A DNA stretch of 64,000 nucleotides from Planctomycetota bacterium (GTDB lineage Bacteria; Planctomycetota; E44-bin39), in assembly GCA_004376375.1 (NCBI GenBank), contig SOJX01000090.1, positions 1-64,000 on the forward strand, given 5' to 3'. Shown in pieces: positions 9,992-31,591 of this stretch (the first letter of the stretch is position 1; each line of letters begins with the position of its first letter). The notes under the pieces were generated by a model. That model did not search any database. It had not been told where the DNA came from and saw only the letters and a list, made by a program, of their open reading frames with translations. The position numbers and the translations under genes are program-made.

Positions 9992-10708
9992 ATGGATGAA
10001 CAGGAAGGACCAAAAAAGACAATTTCCCGCCGCGAGCATCTGGACCATGTTGTACGGTTCTGCTTGGGTATCTGGGCTGTTTTTGCGATAGCCGCCGCAT
10101 TTATTTTAGCCAAATTCCTTGACGAGCCGGTAGATTTTTTTGGCGCTTTCATCGGCTGGCTTTTCATATTTACGATAGTCGCGATAATCTTTGGGATTTT
10201 AACCGGGCTTGTGGTGAACAGGCTTTTGCTGGTTGCTTACACAAAACCTGACCATAAAGAAGTACCTGTCTCATGGGTTGCGCGTATCGGGCGTGCAGGA
10301 CGCAAACCGATTACCATATTGGTGCTTGTTTTATTATTAGGCTCTCTCGTTGTATCCCTCATGACACCCATCACAACCGCACATCCTCCCGAATATGAAA
10401 AGGCTGCTATCGCCACGATGAGAACTCTCTCAAGCACTCAGGAACAATATCGCAGCCGGTTCGGGTCATACGCTTCACTCAAGAACCTAAGTGAGCAGCA
10501 ATTTATCGATCCCGTTCTTGGCTCGGGAGAGATGGCCAAGTATAGAATTAAGGTTGTGGTGAAAAGCCAGAATGAATGGTATGCAACAGCTGTATCGATA
10601 AAACCGGGCAAGTACCGTCTAAGTAGTTTCTATATTGATCAGACGGGTGTGATTCGATTTACTACTGATGGGAGCCCACCCACTTCCACATCTCCGACCG
10701 TGGATTAA
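9992..10708 (+). CDS. Three-helix membrane module fused to a pilin-like domain (238 aa)
   Basis: Residues 1-135 form a membrane module: ISRREHL motif at 11-17, hydrophobic stretches at about 24-40 and 50-75, a conserved loop (FGILTG, NRLLLV, KEVPVSWVARIGRAG), and a third helix at about 107-125. Residues from about 138 resemble the globular half of type IV pilins and pseudopilins: AAIATMRTLSSTQEQYRSRF, GSYASLKNL, FIDPVLGSGE, then FYIDQTGVIRFTTDG. In true pilins this part follows a prepilin alpha-1 helix with a cleavage site, which is absent here. First of four tandem paralogues on this strand. A surface or periplasmic domain held in the membrane is inferred; the role is unknown. Confidence 0.75.
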   Translation: MDEQEGPKKTISRREHLDHVVRFCLGIWAVFAIAAAFILAKFLDEPVDFFGAFIGWLFIFTIVAIIFGILTGLVVNRLLLVAYTKPDHKEVPVSWVARIGRAGRKPITILVLVLLLGSLVVSLMTPITTAHPPEYEKAAIATMRTLSSTQEQYRSRFGSYASLKNLSEQQFIDPVLGSGEMAKYRIKVVVKSQNEWYATAVSIKPGKYRLSSFYIDQTGVIRFTTDGSPPTSTSPTVD

Positions 10709-10852
10709 TTGATTCATAATTCATCTCATATTTTTTTGGTCCAGCGTTTGCAATACTCTCCATACGAACTGTGGCAAGGTTAAAATAGGGTTTTTTACTG
10801 GAAAAATTGAGAATTTTTGTCGCTTCGGTGACACATTTTGGCGTCAGGGCAA

Positions 10853-11551
10853 ATGGCTGGAAAATTTAAAAAGAGAATTGTAATTCCCCGCCGGGAACAC
10901 TTGTCTGATGTGATACGTTTTTCCACTGCGTTCTGGATAGGCATGGGTTTCCTGCTTTTCTTGATTCTAATTTTATTAAATGGCTTCAGTGAATTTTCTG
11001 CCACAGTTCTATTTCTTTTCATCCCGGCGGGGGTATTTTTTGGTGTACCGTTCGGAATCGCCCTTCATCGCTGGCTGATTGTCGCGCATTCGGAATACGG
11101 CGCGAAAGTGGTTCCGGTTACCTGGCTGTCCAGAAATGGGCGGTTGTTGAAAGGGTGGTTTGCTGCCGGCATTGTGATACTTATTGTCTTGGTCCTGGTT
11201 GTGATTCCGAGCACTATACATGTATGAGGCCACGGCGGCTACGAGGCGGCCGTTATCGCAAGTTTGCGAACAGTATCTTCATGCCAGGAGCAGTACCGCG
11301 TACGGTACGGAACTTATACAAGTCTGGCAAATCTTTCCGCGGTGAACTTCGTCGATCCCGTATTGGGCTCGGGGCAGAAAAGCGGTTATACAATCAGCGT
11401 GAAGGCCGGTGTCAACACGTGGTCCTGCACAGCGATACCGAATAAGCCGGGTGAAACTGGCGTCAGAGGTTTTTACGTCGACCAGTCAGGAGTACTCCGG
11501 TACACGACTGACGGCACACCACCGACCACGAGTTCACCAGCAATTGATTAA
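10853..11551 (+). pseudogene. Paralogue of the module-pilin fusion, interrupted by in-frame TGA
   Basis: ATG at 10853 opens MAGKFKKRIVIPRREHL and the same membrane module (FGVPFGIALHRWLIV, VVPVTWLSRNGRLLKGW). The frame stops at TGA 11225-11227, after PSTIHV. In the same frame it continues as GHGGYEAAVIASLRTVSSCQ through FYVDQSGVLRYTTDGTPP to a stop at 11549-11551. The part after the TGA aligns end to end with the pilin-like domain of the gene just upstream. The TGA falls in the variable linker. Simplest reading: a single nonsense mutation. If both halves are still made, the second needs internal initiation (TTG at 11264 is possible). I see no convincing SECIS hairpin for selenocysteine. Other genes here use TGA as a normal stop. 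Confidence 0.7.
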
Positions 11552-11654
11552 CGTCCAGTGAAAACAGAAAGCGTTTGCGAAATACGGAATCCGGTTTAGA
11601 ATATCAGCAGAGAGTCCAAGCTCCCGTATCGTCCTTCCTGAAGTGTTTTTCCTG

Positions 11655-12020
11655 ATGAAAAAGCATTTGAAAAACCTCCACACTATAAGCCGGGGCCAGC
11701 ACCTGTTATTTGTTATCCGGACGTCGGTAACGCTCTGGGTAGTAATACTGGCCGAGCTTGTCCTCATAATGGGAGCTGCCTCATTATTGAATGAACACAT
11801 AACAAAGTTTGTCTTTGCCGCCGTTTTCCCGGGCGGTGCAGTGTTTGGACTCGTCTTCGGGATATTTCTGAATCGCTGGCTGCTTGTTTCCCATTCGGAG
11901 TATGGCGCGTATCGTGTTCCCCTTACAAATGCCGCCAGGTGCGGACGCGGGCTCGGCGGCTGGTTCGAGAGTGGATTTATCCTGTTGTCATTTCTGGCTC
12001 TCATGGTATTTATACAGTGA
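11655..12020 (+). CDS. Stand-alone three-helix membrane module (121 aa)
   Basis: Third member of the tandem family. It has the N-terminal motif ISRGQHLLFVIR, helices at about 25-45 and 55-77, the conserved loop (FGLVFGIFLNRWLLV, YRVPLTN, CGRGLGGWF) and a final helix, and then stops; no pilin-like domain follows. I chose ATG 11655 because it places the motif at the same distance from the N-terminus as in the paralogues; GTG at 11643 is an alternative. The loop lacks the Trp of VPVSW/VPVTW seen in its neighbours. Function unknown. Confidence 0.7.
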   Translation: MKKHLKNLHTISRGQHLLFVIRTSVTLWVVILAELVLIMGAASLLNEHITKFVFAAVFPGGAVFGLVFGIFLNRWLLVSHSEYGAYRVPLTNAARCGRGLGGWFESGFILLSFLALMVFIQ

Positions 12021-12033
12021 AGGATTGAAGAAG

Positions 12034-12417
12034 GTGACGATAAAGGACGAGTATGAAGAATTTTTTATTCCGAGGAGGGCACATCTGAAATATGTAATCA
12101 GATATTCCGTGGCCTGCTGGGTATCTGTGAGCATGTTTTTTTCATCTTTTATCCTGATATTTATTAATCCGTTCATCGAAAACAGCACCTTTTTCTTTCT
12201 GGGAGTGTTCGTTTTTGTACCTGCGGGAATATTCTGGGGAGTAGTGTTCGGACTGGTTATCGACCGTCTGATCCAGGTATCCTATACGAAGTACAGGGCC
12301 AGATATATTCCACTTACATGGTTTTCGGAAGGCGGCAGAGCAATAAAAGACTGGCTGGAAGGTACAATCGCGTTCATATTTTTTATCGGATTGACGGCTT
12401 ACATATTTACCGTCTGA
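12034..12417 (+). CDS. Stand-alone three-helix membrane module (127 aa)
   Basis: Fourth tandem paralogue. GTG at 12034, preceded by GAAGAAG, gives MTIKDEYEEFFIPRRAHL, which aligns with the IPRREHL start of its neighbours. It has two hydrophobic segments, the loop FWGVVFGLVIDRLIQV with YIPLTWFSEGGRAIKDW, and a third helix ending at FTV. Only 13 bases separate it from the preceding stop, so the genes are probably co-transcribed. There is no extra domain. It could be a partner subunit for the pilin-bearing paralogues, but that is inference. Confidence 0.7.
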   Translation: MTIKDEYEEFFIPRRAHLKYVIRYSVACWVSVSMFFSSFILIFINPFIENSTFFFLGVFVFVPAGIFWGVVFGLVIDRLIQVSYTKYRARYIPLTWFSEGGRAIKDWLEGTIAFIFFIGLTAYIFTV

Positions 12418-26177: not shown

Positions 26178-26340
26178 TAAGAGATAGGTGATAGGTGATA
26201 TAGGGAAAAGAGGAAAAGAAGAAGAAAGGGAGAGAGAAAAGAAGAAATAAAAAAACGCCGCGCAAACCGGTCTGGTTACGCGCGGCCGCTAAATATATTT
26301 AATATTCTTTACTTATCTCTTATCACCTATCACATATCAC
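26172..26340. repeat. Composite element: heptad arms around a REP-like hairpin
   Basis: Left arm GTGATAAGAGATAGGTGATA, right arm TTATCTCTTATCACCTATCA: inverted copies made of GATAGGT-type 7-bp units. A purine-rich stretch and a REP-like palindrome (26256-26294) lie between them. The whole 169-bp block fills the gap between two convergent genes and has the shape of a small inverted-repeat element. No reading frame inside. The stop codon region of the anti-sigma gene touches the right arm. Confidence 0.85.
26249..26286 (-). terminator. Terminator of the sigma/anti-sigma operon
   Basis: Read on the minus strand: stem GCCGCGC/GCGCGGC extended by AACC/GGTT, then seven T residues (26255-26249). 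It lies about 55 bases after the end of the anti-sigma gene. The stem is the REP-like palindrome of the composite element, so here the repeat doubles as the terminator. Confidence 0.8.
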
Positions 26341-27008
26341 TAATTTGATGGAAACACGTCGTCGCCCTTGCAGCCTTCGTCGATACCGTTCGGGCCGACT
26401 GAATAGAAGATAACTCTTCCGCTTGTCTCGTCGGTCATAACGCGGAACGGCTTTTCCCACGGGTCGAGAAATTTGCCTTCCTTTACCTGCGGCAGTTCGT
26501 CCTGCTTGAGCTTCTCGGCAAGTTTCGGTTCGAGCAGGGCAACAAGCTGCCGGTCGTTTGTAATTTTTCCGGGATGGCGGATAAGGGCGACGGCTTTCGA
26601 CATCGTGTTGACCTGCAATCTGGCGAGCTCCTCGGGCGTGGATTTCTTGATCTTGACAAGCGAGCCGTAGGCGATGAAAAGAACCAGTATGATAATCACG
26701 CTCGCAGCCGCTATGGCGATGTACGTGTAATTGCGCCGGCGCATGCTGATGCGCGCGCTTCTGCGTGAAGAGCCGGACGAAAGGAAGGTTTCGGGGGATT
26801 TGCTGGGTCTTGTGCCGACTTCGCGGGCCATGGCGAGCATCGCGGACTTCATCAGCGATTCGTAGCTTGTCGCGTCATCGAGTTTCTGTCTGCATTCGGG
26901 GCACTCTTCCGCGTGTTTTACCGCGAAGTCCCAGTCGGCGTCGTCTGCTTCGCCGGCAAGATAATTGTCGACCAGGTCTTCGGTTCTGTCGCACTGCCAG
27001 TCCATCAA
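26340..27008 (-). CDS. Anti-sigma factor with extracytoplasmic GspG-like domain (222 aa)
   Basis: Residues 1-45 carry the zinc-binding anti-sigma motif: H32, C36 and C39 in KHAEECPECR. A basic linker and a membrane helix (about 95-114, YIAIAAASVIIILVLFIAYG) follow. The outer part ends, from about 180, in LDPWEKPFRV, IFYSVGPNGIDEG and DDVF. This is the pattern of the C-terminal calcium loop of the major pseudopilin GspG (DPWGxPY ... SxGxDG ... DD). The fusion suggests the sigma factor is released in response to something sensed by a pseudopilin-like fold. It overlaps the sigma gene by 4 bp (ATGA), so the two are co-translated. Confidence 0.85.
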   Translation of the reverse strand: MMDWQCDRTEDLVDNYLAGEADDADWDFAVKHAEECPECRQKLDDATSYESLMKSAMLAMAREVGTRPSKSPETFLSSGSSRRSARISMRRRNYTYIAIAAASVIIILVLFIAYGSLVKIKKSTPEELARLQVNTMSKAVALIRHPGKITNDRQLVALLEPKLAEKLKQDELPQVKEGKFLDPWEKPFRVMTDETSGRVIFYSVGPNGIDEGCKGDDVFPSN

Positions 27009-27547
27009 AAATACTCCTTCAGTTTTTCTTCAAGCATCCGGTTGGCGCGGAAGATCCGGTTGCGAATCGTCCCGGCCGGCTCGCCCAGGAAATCGGCGAT
27101 ATCTTTCGCGCTCATCCCTTCGAGAAACCGCAGGTTTATTACGACGCGGTAATTATCGGGAAGGTCGCCGATCGCCGTCCGAACTGCCTCGAGCGTTTCG
27201 CCGTTCAGTTTCGACTCGTCCGCGGGCGCGGACAGCAGGGATTCGGAAACGTCGTCAATCGAGCCGCCATCGGGGCGGCGCATCTGCGCGCGGAGGACGT
27301 CCATGCATGCGCTGCCGGCAATCGTATATAGCCACGGGCCGAAACGCTCGGGATGCCTGAGTTGCTTCAAAGAGCGGTACGCTTTGGCGAATATGTCCTG
27401 CAGCAGGTCTTCCCAGTCGCCGCGCGGGCCGAGCTTCTGGTAGATGAAAACGCCGATCTGCTTCCAGTACCGGCGGAAGAGCCTGTCGGACGCGGTCCTG
27501 TCACCCTTGCGCGCTTGTTTTACAAGTTCTGCGTCCGATTCGGACAT
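27005..27547 (-). CDS. ECF-family RNA polymerase sigma factor (180 aa)
   Basis: Region 2 spans about 10-85 (DRLFRRYWKQIGVFIYQKLG, DWEDLLQDIFAKAYRSLKQL, FGPWLYTIAGSACMDVLR). Region 4 is at about 120-175 (AIGDLPDNYRVVINLRFLEG, then MSAKDIADFLGEPAGTIRNR). The short form without region 1 or 3 is typical of ECF sigma factors, which are held by a membrane anti-sigma partner. That partner is the overlapping gene downstream. Target promoters are unknown; I cannot see an obvious autoregulatory promoter in the 130 bases before it. Confidence 0.95.
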   Translation of the reverse strand: MSESDAELVKQARKGDRTASDRLFRRYWKQIGVFIYQKLGPRGDWEDLLQDIFAKAYRSLKQLRHPERFGPWLYTIAGSACMDVLRAQMRRPDGGSIDDVSESLLSAPADESKLNGETLEAVRTAIGDLPDNYRVVINLRFLEGMSAKDIADFLGEPAGTIRNRIFRANRMLEEKLKEYF

Positions 27548-27681: not shown

Positions 27682-28755
27682 TCATTTATTAGCAATTCGC
27701 TTTATTGCGCGCGAAGCAGCACTTCGAACATTTGGGTTCGCGTCATTTTTACACACATTCTTCAAGATATTTAATGTACTTTGCTCGCCTATTTCCCCAA
27801 GAGCGGAAACACAATCATGGCGAATAACAGCATTTGGGTCTTTCAAGGCATTAACCAACTCCGGTATGGCTTTTTTATCTCCGATGGAGCCTAAGCTTAA
27901 TGCGGCCCAACGCCTTACATTAATGTCATCACCAGAATCACTAAGCATATTAATCATGGCCCCTACTATAGTTGGATTATTTATTTCCATGCCAATTATA
28001 TTTAGAGAATGCAATGCGTTGATTCTCAATTGTGAGTACTCATTGCTTTGGGCTATTTCGACTAATTTGTCAATTGATTTGGTGTCCCGGTAAAGCTTGA
28101 GAGCATTAACTATTGCTTCTTTAACGTTTTCATCATACTGATTATATGAGGAAGTCAGAAGATCTAAAGAAGTATTATCACCAATTTCATAAAGAGATCT
28201 AACCGCCAATTCTACAAGATCGGAATCCGAGTAACTTGAATCTGAAATTATCTTTCGTAATTGCGGAAGAGCTTTTGGATTTGGCTTTGTCAGGATATGC
28301 TGCAATGTTTCCAGTCGAACGTGGTAAGATTGGGATTTTTTCAGACCGTAAATTTGTCCAAATATATATAAATTGGAAAAGAAAGGCTGCATCATTATGC
28401 ATTTTGAATACAAGCCAAGCATTATTACCCAGAGTATTATCCCTCCCCACCCCCCGAACCATTTTCCAATCCGCATCCCCCAAGACACTGGAACTTTATC
28501 TGTAGGTTTGTCCAAATGTATTACCAGTAAAAAACGATGGAAAACCAAGCCAAAAACAATTCCAAAGGAAAGACCGATTGGCATAATCCATGCAAGGGAA
28601 ATTCTTGAGATATTAAAAAGTGGTTCTTGCCTTGGACATGTTAGCACGTAACCTAACGGAACTAATGTTAGAATTGACGCAACAATTACATAGATAGTGG
28701 CTGTTACGTATACTACATATGCAGCGTGTTTTACGACTGAAGTCTCGCTACTCAT
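27682..28755 (-). CDS. Three-helix membrane module fused to HEAT repeats (357 aa)
   Basis: The first 135 residues carry the module also seen four times at 10-12.4 kb: helices at about 10-40 and 50-70, the loop FGIVFGLVFHRFLLV with KVPVSWGMRIGKWFGGW, and a third helix. It lacks the ISRREHL start motif. From about 140 to the end are HEAT/PBS-lyase repeats (YHVRLETLQHIL, DDINVRRWAALSLGSIGDK, KDPNAVIRHDCVSALGEIGE and so on), probably in the cytoplasm for partner binding. Good AAGGATGAT Shine-Dalgarno sequence. The gene is much more AT-rich than its neighbours on both sides, suggesting transfer. Function unknown. Confidence 0.85.
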   Translation of the reverse strand: MSSETSVVKHAAYVVYVTATIYVIVASILTLVPLGYVLTCPRQEPLFNISRISLAWIMPIGLSFGIVFGLVFHRFLLVIHLDKPTDKVPVSWGMRIGKWFGGWGGIILWVIMLGLYSKCIMMQPFFSNLYIFGQIYGLKKSQSYHVRLETLQHILTKPNPKALPQLRKIISDSSYSDSDLVELAVRSLYEIGDNTSLDLLTSSYNQYDENVKEAIVNALKLYRDTKSIDKLVEIAQSNEYSQLRINALHSLNIIGMEINNPTIVGAMINMLSDSGDDINVRRWAALSLGSIGDKKAIPELVNALKDPNAVIRHDCVSALGEIGEQSTLNILKNVCKNDANPNVRSAASRAIKRIANK

Positions 28756-28813: not shown

Positions 28814-31591
28814 TTATTTATTCTTCTTTTTCTTTTCTTCCGCTTTGACGGCGTCGCGGGCGGCGTCGATGTAGGGCTCGAGGTTTTTGAGCTCGGGGTT
28901 AAAGCCGCGGGCCATCAGGAAATCGTCGAGCGCGTTCTTGAATTTTCGCATCCGGTAGTATGCAATCCCGCGAAGGTAATAGAAGCGCGCGTTGAGCCGC
29001 TCGATCTTGAGCGCCCGGTTCAGTTCCCTGAGCGCGTTGTGCGGGCTGTTGAGGCGGAGATCGATTTCGCCCGAGAGCGCCCACGCGTCCGCGAAATTCT
29101 CGCGCTCGAGAAACGCGGGCGTCAGGGCCTCGCGCGCCTCTGAAAACTTTTTTTCCTTGAATGAAATCCGGGCAAGATAAAACGGCAGCCTTTTCGGCGC
29201 ATCGCTGAGCGATTTGCCGGCGCTTTCGTAGGCCTGCCTCGCCTTTTCCAGCTCGCCGGCGTTTTCGTGTATTTTGCCGATTTCAAGCCATGCCGCGCCC
29301 GGCCGGTGCGAGGCTTCGGCCGCGGTAGAAAAGTTTTCCAGGGCTTCGTCATATTTTTTTGCTTCAAGCGCGATCTGGGCGCGCAGGAAGATGATGTCCA
29401 ACCGCTCGGGCGCTATCCGGATTGCGGCGCCGAGCTCGTCCATCGCGGCCTTGTATTCGCCCAGCTTTCTCTCATGCTCCGCTTTTGCGATCCTGTATTC
29501 CAGGTTTCTCGGTTTCAGCCGGACCGCGTTTGCATAATCTTTCAGAGCTTTCTGGATTCCTCGATCGTTTTTCGCAGCCAGAGAAAGGGTTTTTCCCCGT
29601 GCCGCATAGGCCCCGTCGGATTCGGGGTCGATTTGAAGGGCCTTGGTGAAATCGTTTTCCGCCCGTTTCAACCGGTTCTGGGCGAGGTATGCGCGCCCGC
29701 GCAGAAGCCAGGCCCGGGCGTGTCCGGAATCGAGGCCGAGCACTTCCGTTGCCGCCATGATTGCTTTACTGTAATCCCCGGCCTTATAATTTTCCGCGGC
29801 CAGCAGCCATGCGGCTTCCTTGTGCTCGACGCCTATTCTTACCGATTTTTCCAGGTCGGAAATAGCGGCGTCGCGCTTCCCCAGTTTCAGGCGTGCGCGC
29901 GCCCTGCCGGTCAGGCAGCGGACCTGCCATTTCTGGCTGAGCGCGGAGCCGGCCCCCGCGGAAAACGCCTTCTCCGCGGCCGCGTAATCCTCTTTTGACT
30001 CGGCGATCAGGCCTTTATAACATTCCGGGCGCGCAGGCTCACCCTGGAACGATTCGGTAAGTTGCGCCAGGTCGGCTTCCGCTTTCTTGAATTTTCCGAG
30101 CGAGATAAGGCATTTCGCGCGGGTCAGGTAAAGTTTCGAGCGCAGGCCCGGCATCAGCGGTACCGGGTGCAGGGCCGGCGGCGCATCCGGGGGCGGCAGA
30201 GGCCTGTCGGGCCATTTGAACGCAAGCGCGAAAGCTTCGTTGTCGAGGTTTTCCATTCCCTTCGTAAGCAGCTCGCAGGCCTGCGGAAAGTTGCCGAGCT
30301 TTTCAAAGAGAAGTCCTTCCGCAATATCGGCGAGGAGGGAGCGGTTGTCGAGCGCGCGGGCGGAGTTGATGTTGTGCTGTGCGGCGAAGTGCTGGTTATC
30401 CATGACTTCAGCCAGCGCGATAAGAGCGAGCGGTTCCGCCTGTTTGAAGGCCAGAATCCCCGCGAAAATAAACGAATTTTTCGCCTCGCCGGATTCACCG
30501 GCCTCGAGCGCAAGAGCACCCTTGACAATTGCCAGTTCCGGGTCGGGTTGCTTGTTTGTCGACAGGGCAAATTCGAGATCGTCAACAGCCCGGAGTTTGC
30601 CCGCTGCCGCATAGAGCAGTCCGCGGACACCGCGAGCCTTCCCGTTACGCGGCTCAGCCTTGATTACCGCGTTCAGGTCTTCGAGCGCGCTATCGAACCG
30701 CCCGCCGCGGAAGTATGACTTTCCGCGAATCAAGCGCGCGGGAGTCATCGCCGGGTCTACCTCGAGAGCCCGCGTTGCCGCCTTGATCGCAGCCGCGTAG
30801 TCCCCCGAATCGTGCGCTATCCGGGCCGTTATGAGATTCCGATAGGCGGGCGCGGGAAAGTTTCCGGGAACTTCCGTAACGCGCTTATAAGCATCGTTTG
30901 CGTTGCCGGCAAGACGGAGCGCTTCTGCGGAAAGCAGAAGGTAGGCATCCGCAAAAGGCCCTTTTTCGCGCGCCTTTGCTTCCAGCCTCGTAGCTTCTGA
31001 TGCCGGGCCGGGGTCGCGATAAAGGAAGGCAAGCTGCACTGCCAGGAATTCGCGGACCTGGTCCGGCCGGACGGTGTTCTGCGCGGGAGTCGGCGGTTTG
31101 GGAATCTGGGTCTGTGTTTGCGGACCGCCGTCATCCGCGATTGAGGATATCAGGATAAAGACCAGAACGACAATAACACCGAGAATAACGCCGAGCAGGA
31201 TCGTCTGACGCCGCAGGGGCGGGCGTTTTACCGGAATCGCCATGGGGATGCTTTCCAGGACTTCGTCGGAAGGCGCATCAGGCGAGCTTCCCAGCCGGAG
31301 CTCGGGCACGTCTCCGTCAACCGGAATCGCGACCGGCAGGTCTTCATCCGGCTGGTCTTCAATTGCCCCGGCTTCCGATTTGCCCGCGGAATCGAGCACC
31401 AGCTCGTTGACCCTGGGCACGTCGGACTGGGAAATGTATCCTTCGCGGACCAGGAGTGAAATAAGGTTGATTTTCCTGCCTTCATCGTCGAGGGACTGCT
31501 TTTTTATAAGGGCGGCTTCGCCCGCCGAGCCGGTCATTATCCCGTTCTCGACAAGCAGGTCGATAAGAAATTTGTCCCGTGCGCTGGGCAT
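28814..31591 (-). CDS. Membrane-anchored TPR protein (925 aa)
   Basis: Residues 1-68 form a small helical domain (FLIDLLVENGIM, INLISLLVREGYISQSDV) that resembles the MshEN/T2SSE_N modules of the secretion ATPases encoded further on. An acidic linker and one membrane helix (about 130-150) follow. From about 165 there are some 18-20 tetratricopeptide repeats, for example AAIKAATRALEVDPAMTPA, AENDFTKALQIDPESDGAYA and ALRELNRALKIERLNARFYY. TPRs bind partner proteins; this is a large scaffold outside the inner membrane if the N-terminus is cytoplasmic. The tail is Lys-rich (KAEEKKKKNK). An 8-bp repeat array lies immediately upstream of its start. Confidence 0.88.
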   Translation of the reverse strand: MPSARDKFLIDLLVENGIMTGSAGEAALIKKQSLDDEGRKINLISLLVREGYISQSDVPRVNELVLDSAGKSEAGAIEDQPDEDLPVAIPVDGDVPELRLGSSPDAPSDEVLESIPMAIPVKRPPLRRQTILLGVILGVIVVLVFILISSIADDGGPQTQTQIPKPPTPAQNTVRPDQVREFLAVQLAFLYRDPGPASEATRLEAKAREKGPFADAYLLLSAEALRLAGNANDAYKRVTEVPGNFPAPAYRNLITARIAHDSGDYAAAIKAATRALEVDPAMTPARLIRGKSYFRGGRFDSALEDLNAVIKAEPRNGKARGVRGLLYAAAGKLRAVDDLEFALSTNKQPDPELAIVKGALALEAGESGEAKNSFIFAGILAFKQAEPLALIALAEVMDNQHFAAQHNINSARALDNRSLLADIAEGLLFEKLGNFPQACELLTKGMENLDNEAFALAFKWPDRPLPPPDAPPALHPVPLMPGLRSKLYLTRAKCLISLGKFKKAEADLAQLTESFQGEPARPECYKGLIAESKEDYAAAEKAFSAGAGSALSQKWQVRCLTGRARARLKLGKRDAAISDLEKSVRIGVEHKEAAWLLAAENYKAGDYSKAIMAATEVLGLDSGHARAWLLRGRAYLAQNRLKRAENDFTKALQIDPESDGAYAARGKTLSLAAKNDRGIQKALKDYANAVRLKPRNLEYRIAKAEHERKLGEYKAAMDELGAAIRIAPERLDIIFLRAQIALEAKKYDEALENFSTAAEASHRPGAAWLEIGKIHENAGELEKARQAYESAGKSLSDAPKRLPFYLARISFKEKKFSEAREALTPAFLERENFADAWALSGEIDLRLNSPHNALRELNRALKIERLNARFYYLRGIAYYRMRKFKNALDDFLMARGFNPELKNLEPYIDAARDAVKAEEKKKKNK

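Follow-up and report, generated by a model that had tools for sequence, protein, structure and literature searches.

Four consecutive genes on one planctomycete contig encode variants of a single membrane module, which raises the question of what this module is, what it holds at the membrane and on which side. The window analysed here comprises positions 1 to 64000 of one contig in an assembly of 5.68 Mb and 157 contigs. Translation showed that 9992-12417 of the plus strand holds four paralogous module genes and that a fifth copy with HEAT repeats lies at 27682-28755 of the minus strand; this arrangement, first read in the initial annotation, was borne out by alignment and by the leave-window-out profile search described below. 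The features concerned are:

9992-10708, plus strand: copy 1, a module with three transmembrane (TM) segments (ca. 9992-10366) followed by a pilin-like globular head (ca. 10394-10705)
10853-11227, plus strand: copy 2, a three-TM module of 124 amino acids from the likely start ATG at 10853 (the other option is TTG at 10838), ending at the stop codon TGA 11225-11227
11228-11551, plus strand: a pilin-like head in frame with copy 2, after its stop codon
11655-12020, plus strand: copy 3, a three-TM module alone, 121 amino acids, likely start ATG 11655
12034-12417, plus strand: copy 4, a three-TM module alone, 127 amino acids, likely start GTG 12034, 13 bases past the copy 3 stop
27682-28755, minus strand: copy 5, a three-TM module (ca. 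28342-28755) with HEAT repeats (HEAT_2)
28814-31591, minus strand: a TPR protein with a single TM segment, lying immediately upstream of copy 5, 58 bases away

The TPR protein is a possible partner of copy 5. The region 26340-27547, which adjoins copy 5, holds an ECF sigma factor (27005-27547) and then a one-TM protein that could be an anti-sigma factor. An Rfam search of the window gave no match.

In an alignment of the five window copies, H16, V20, G68, G72, R77, V81, P92 and G100 were invariant. A profile of the 19 copies outside the window, searched against the six-frame ORFs of the window, retrieved precisely the five window ORFs (E = 6.4e-26 to 3.2e-21), and no match was obtained against five-fold shuffles; chance or low complexity was thereby ruled out as the source of the similarity. 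The start motif that had been ascribed to all copies held only in part: ISRGQHL stands there in copy 3 and TSVVKHA in copy 5, while a core (I)S-R/K-R/K-x-H was conserved.

A profile of the five copies, a search proposed with the initial annotation, retrieved 24 copies of the module (ca. 125 residues) in the genome, and a profile of all 24 rows returned the same 24; the count of five first given was therefore too low. The claim that one module is reused with different domains proved stronger than stated, the copies being joined to ankyrin repeats, HEAT repeats, HEAT and ankyrin repeats together or a pilin-like head, or standing alone. When the ORFs of the 24 copies were read, 11 were found to carry ankyrin repeats and 8 HEAT or HEAT-like repeats, one of the latter also having ankyrin repeats; the HEAT label of L029 (no Pfam match) and of L026 (outside the Pfam scan) is by reading alone. 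The cargo of copy 5 passed the HEAT_2 cut-off in the Pfam scan (E = 6.8e-47, 158.1 bits against 27.7). A pilin-like head is carried by copy 1, and formerly also by copy 2, and three copies are standalone modules. Among the ankyrin copies, two bear additional helices at the N-terminus and one a zinc-ribbon-like start. In a tree of the modules, the ankyrin type gave a single strong group, of 10 copies (100/99), and cargo was clustered, needing 7 changes where shuffles needed 11.2, most other forks being poorly supported. A small membrane protein at L077:7682-8140 has its first 11 residues alone (MDSASLISRKR) in common with the neighbouring module-ankyrin gene, and looks like a decayed or re-used module start.

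The initial annotation recognised no described family in the module, and the searches agreed. In a Pfam/NCBIfam scan of the 24 members, no family matched more than two of them (best E ca. 0.0025), and the module part stayed under every printed cut-off. A PDB profile search with the module returned nothing at E <= 1, Foldseek with the copy 1 model (of moderate quality) against the PDB nothing at E <= 0.001, and a fold search against viral models nothing significant. Outside its own genome, the module was found in none of 59 relatives, nine named genomes and 392 phylum genomes (a draw with per-genome scoring of nine candidates). The sole other phylum match, in G336, lies in an ORF that reads as a membrane pyrophosphatase and was matched over ca. 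70 residues; copy 1 itself had a match to membrane pyrophosphatase, but kinship with this enzyme was rejected, the G336 match falling at a place unrelated to the copy 1 match. Scans of the named genomes and viral contigs with degenerate patterns gave candidates, none of which was confirmed, and no module was found on plasmids or phages. In a partial 16S tree the genome was nearest to Scalindua (76%) and the sampled phylum genomes fell among named planctomycetes, while the nearest aspartyl-tRNA synthetases were those of Ca. Scalindua (51%), Caldithrix (51%) and a Phycisphaerae genome (50%); together these indicate Planctomycetota as the phylum. No sampled genome shares its class, order or family with this one, so the module family may predate one species; it is not widespread in the phylum as sampled.

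Hydropathy revealed three TM segments in the module, matching its first description as a three-helix membrane unit. Lys plus Arg per 20 residues was highest ahead of TM1 (4.2) and in loop 2 (3.5) and lower in loop 1 (1.6) and beyond TM3 (2.4), and in 24 of 24 copies the N-terminus plus loop 2 had more of them than loop 1 plus the part after TM3. By the positive-inside rule, this charge bias predicts an N-in/C-out topology, which would fit an extracytoplasmic cargo. Loop 1 of the ankyrin-type copies is CxC...H-like. AlphaFold models of two of the five window copies, copies 1 and 5 (27-28% identity), agreed on a common layout, namely a strand at ISR, TM1, a long TM2, a strand at VPVSW, a short helix and TM3; they were built on 5-6 sequences, with a pLDDT of ca. 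66-92 over most of the module. The strand assignment suggests that the VPxS strand pairs with the N-terminal ISR strand. The best-conserved part of the module consists of the motifs predicted to lie on the cytoplasmic side, and their conservation exceeds the need of a passive anchor.

Of the two functions first suggested, anchoring or sensing, the former is well supported by the sequence. We propose that the module is probably a lineage-specific inner-membrane anchor and assembly unit that displays protein-binding repeats outside the cytoplasm, a reading preferred because membrane attachment with outside cargo is the common denominator of the 24 fusions. The N-terminus (ISRRxH) would be in the cytoplasm, and TM1 and TM2, the latter bearing a GxxxG packing motif, would make a helical hairpin whose short loop lies outside the cytoplasm. 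The stretch after TM2 (NRxxLVxYS...VPxSxxARxGKxLLGWRG) would fold back on the cytoplasmic side, with the VPxS strand against the N-terminal ISR strand, and TM3 would lead outward to the C-terminal cargo. In this way ankyrin or HEAT repeats, and in one copy a pilin-like head, would present a protein-binding surface at the outer side of the inner membrane. A cytoplasmic location is the commoner one for ankyrin and HEAT repeats, which counts against display. The head of copy 1, which follows TM3, counts for an outside cargo: the genome's true GFTLIE pilins bear the same head, and this fold is extracytoplasmic in known pilins.

The heads of copies 1 and 2 appear to resemble the head of type IV or ComP-like minor pilins (PF16732), with sub-threshold Pfam matches only (copy 2 head against PF16732, E = 0.00088, below the cut-off), and the head was poorly modelled in the AlphaFold model of copy 1. 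That of copy 2 is 55% identical to that of copy 1 and up to 70% identical to a true GFTLIE pilin in the genome. This head is reused at 17 places (L030-L046), among them true pilins, a position after a coiled coil, an ORF with a Tat-like stretch and four large C152 ORFs. The pilin-like domain initially assigned to two copies is intact in copy 1 and in copy 2 is cut off by the in-frame TGA at 11225-11227. This TGA, which separates copy 2 from an otherwise intact head, would represent a recent nonsense change or an assembly error; stop-codon recoding is the less likely account, since other module genes terminate with TGA. The presence of such a head after TM3 in copy 1, and formerly in copy 2, would be explained if the module were part of a pilus- or pseudopilus-like machine with the repeat proteins as assembly factors. 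However, only one or two of the 24 copies have the head, which is also fused to unrelated proteins, and the prepilin peptidase motif G-F-x-x-x-E that precedes the hydrophobic helix of the true pilins (C102) is absent from copies 1 and 2. Unlike type IV pilins, copy 1 has no prepilin cleavage site, and it is TM3 of the module that holds its head. Inspection of the listed neighbours by eye turned up neither a pilus ATPase nor a platform gene. A pilus function is very improbable.

The neighbours of the module genes, examined by eye on greedy ORF calls, were mostly unrelated and diverse housekeeping genes with no shared pathway visible. On C45 and C137, module genes adjoin paralogous TPR-GAF-AAA+-Fis regulators at gaps of 37 and 87 bases, respectively, one is convergent to such a regulator on C6, and that on C39 lies 31 bases behind a Ser/Thr kinase. 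These adjacencies, the 77 Ser/Thr kinase matches in the genome and the strong conservation of the cytoplasmic-side motifs favour the main rival, transmembrane signalling, in which binding to the outer repeats would be relayed through TM1-TM3 to the conserved cytoplasmic face acting on kinases or sigma-54 activators. However, with 62 sigma-54 regulator matches in addition to the kinases, both classes are so numerous that chance alone would place some of them next to module genes, and a general link of the module to either was therefore left as weak. The cytoplasmic side has no effector domain, and most copies have housekeeping neighbours. We consider signalling rather unlikely; a sensing role would draw on the conserved cytoplasmic-side motifs only. 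Separately, at least ca. 18 giant ORFs (1,728-1,898 amino acids; on C25, C58, C34, C7, C16, C137 and others) match a Ser/Thr kinase and the GAF-AAA+-Fis part of sigma-54 activators, the two apparently forming one chain.

A second anchor, unrelated to the module, often fronts the other ankyrin/HEAT proteins of the genome; it starts with MKLSLPLKLGIxVVLLFAAVIATCLLWTPVRxRYY and has one TM helix. More than 30 distinct copies were counted in the loci fetched (L139-L198, L073:10709-11989, L075:6573-7310 and L080:4530-5771), which is a lower bound. The copy at L074:10261-11751 carries a different cargo with no Pfam match. An LLRxHG(A/G)KTG-EL-like tail, scored partly by eye since a regular expression missed variants, closes the ankyrin cargo on both anchors and is absent from both signal-peptide-like ankyrin proteins seen; the two anchors therefore share a cargo pool. 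ATGA overlaps join a module-ankyrin gene to a following module-HEAT gene on C45, a module-only gene to a single-TM ankyrin gene on C110 and a module-HEAT-ankyrin gene to a single-TM HEAT gene on C70. For the two overlaps between the anchor types, a Poisson estimate gave ca. 0.004, a rough value, to be read as indicative, that assumes ca. 40 single-TM genes among 5000. Because of the module-only copies and these translationally coupled pairs, it is suggested that modules may assemble into hetero-oligomers, including with the single-TM anchor family bearing ankyrin cargo of the same type. We infer topology, display, oligomerisation and ligand binding alike. Many Lys and Arg residues follow the TM helix of the single-TM anchor, so that the positive-inside rule would allow a cytoplasmic position for its cargo. 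It is a speculative and rather doubtful extension that the three-TM (24 copies) and single-TM (>30) anchors exchange repeat cargo and pair through coupled genes, yielding by combinatorial display a large recognition repertoire. If this were true, they would be surface or periplasmic recognition proteins resembling a repertoire of receptors, and might serve in contacts between cells.

Known immunity proteins include ankyrin and HEAT types (PMC3482391), and the many scattered, divergent copies, along with ankyrin and HEAT matches in PADLOC, would also suit membrane-bound immunity proteins against contact-dependent toxins. However, the PADLOC matches were limited to generic repeats, inspection by eye of the listed neighbours of the copies revealed no toxin gene, and no three-TM module has been described for the known immunity versions. 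Such a function is extremely unlikely.

Bacterial ankyrin proteins such as AnkB have ankyrin repeats at or beyond the inner membrane; the likeness is by description only, and no family model searched covers the three-TM module. In Ca. Uabimicrobium amorphum and other Planctomycetota, membrane-spanning Ser/Thr kinases bear TPR/WD40 arrays predicted to be periplasmic (PMC11032199), likewise a lineage-specific expansion of repeat-bearing membrane proteins in a deep planctomycete. While the cytoplasmic part is a kinase in those proteins, it consists here of short conserved motifs with no enzyme, and the anchor has three helices and ankyrin/HEAT cargo. Alpha-solenoid repeats, including HEAT, are described as unusually abundant in Planctomycetes (PMC3837014), in passages that mention neither a three-TM anchor nor cargo-sharing anchor families. 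A literature search found no description of the module family or of the two-anchor arrangement. Thus, the domain family is new, and the kind of protein, a membrane-held repeat array, is already known in the phylum. The module is an unannotated membrane domain present in 24 copies in a deep planctomycete lineage and linked through shared cargo to a second anchor. Within the phylum's expanded set of membrane-bound repeat proteins it provides a kinase-free example, and it makes the extracytoplasmic working of ankyrin and HEAT repeats there a simple question of topology.
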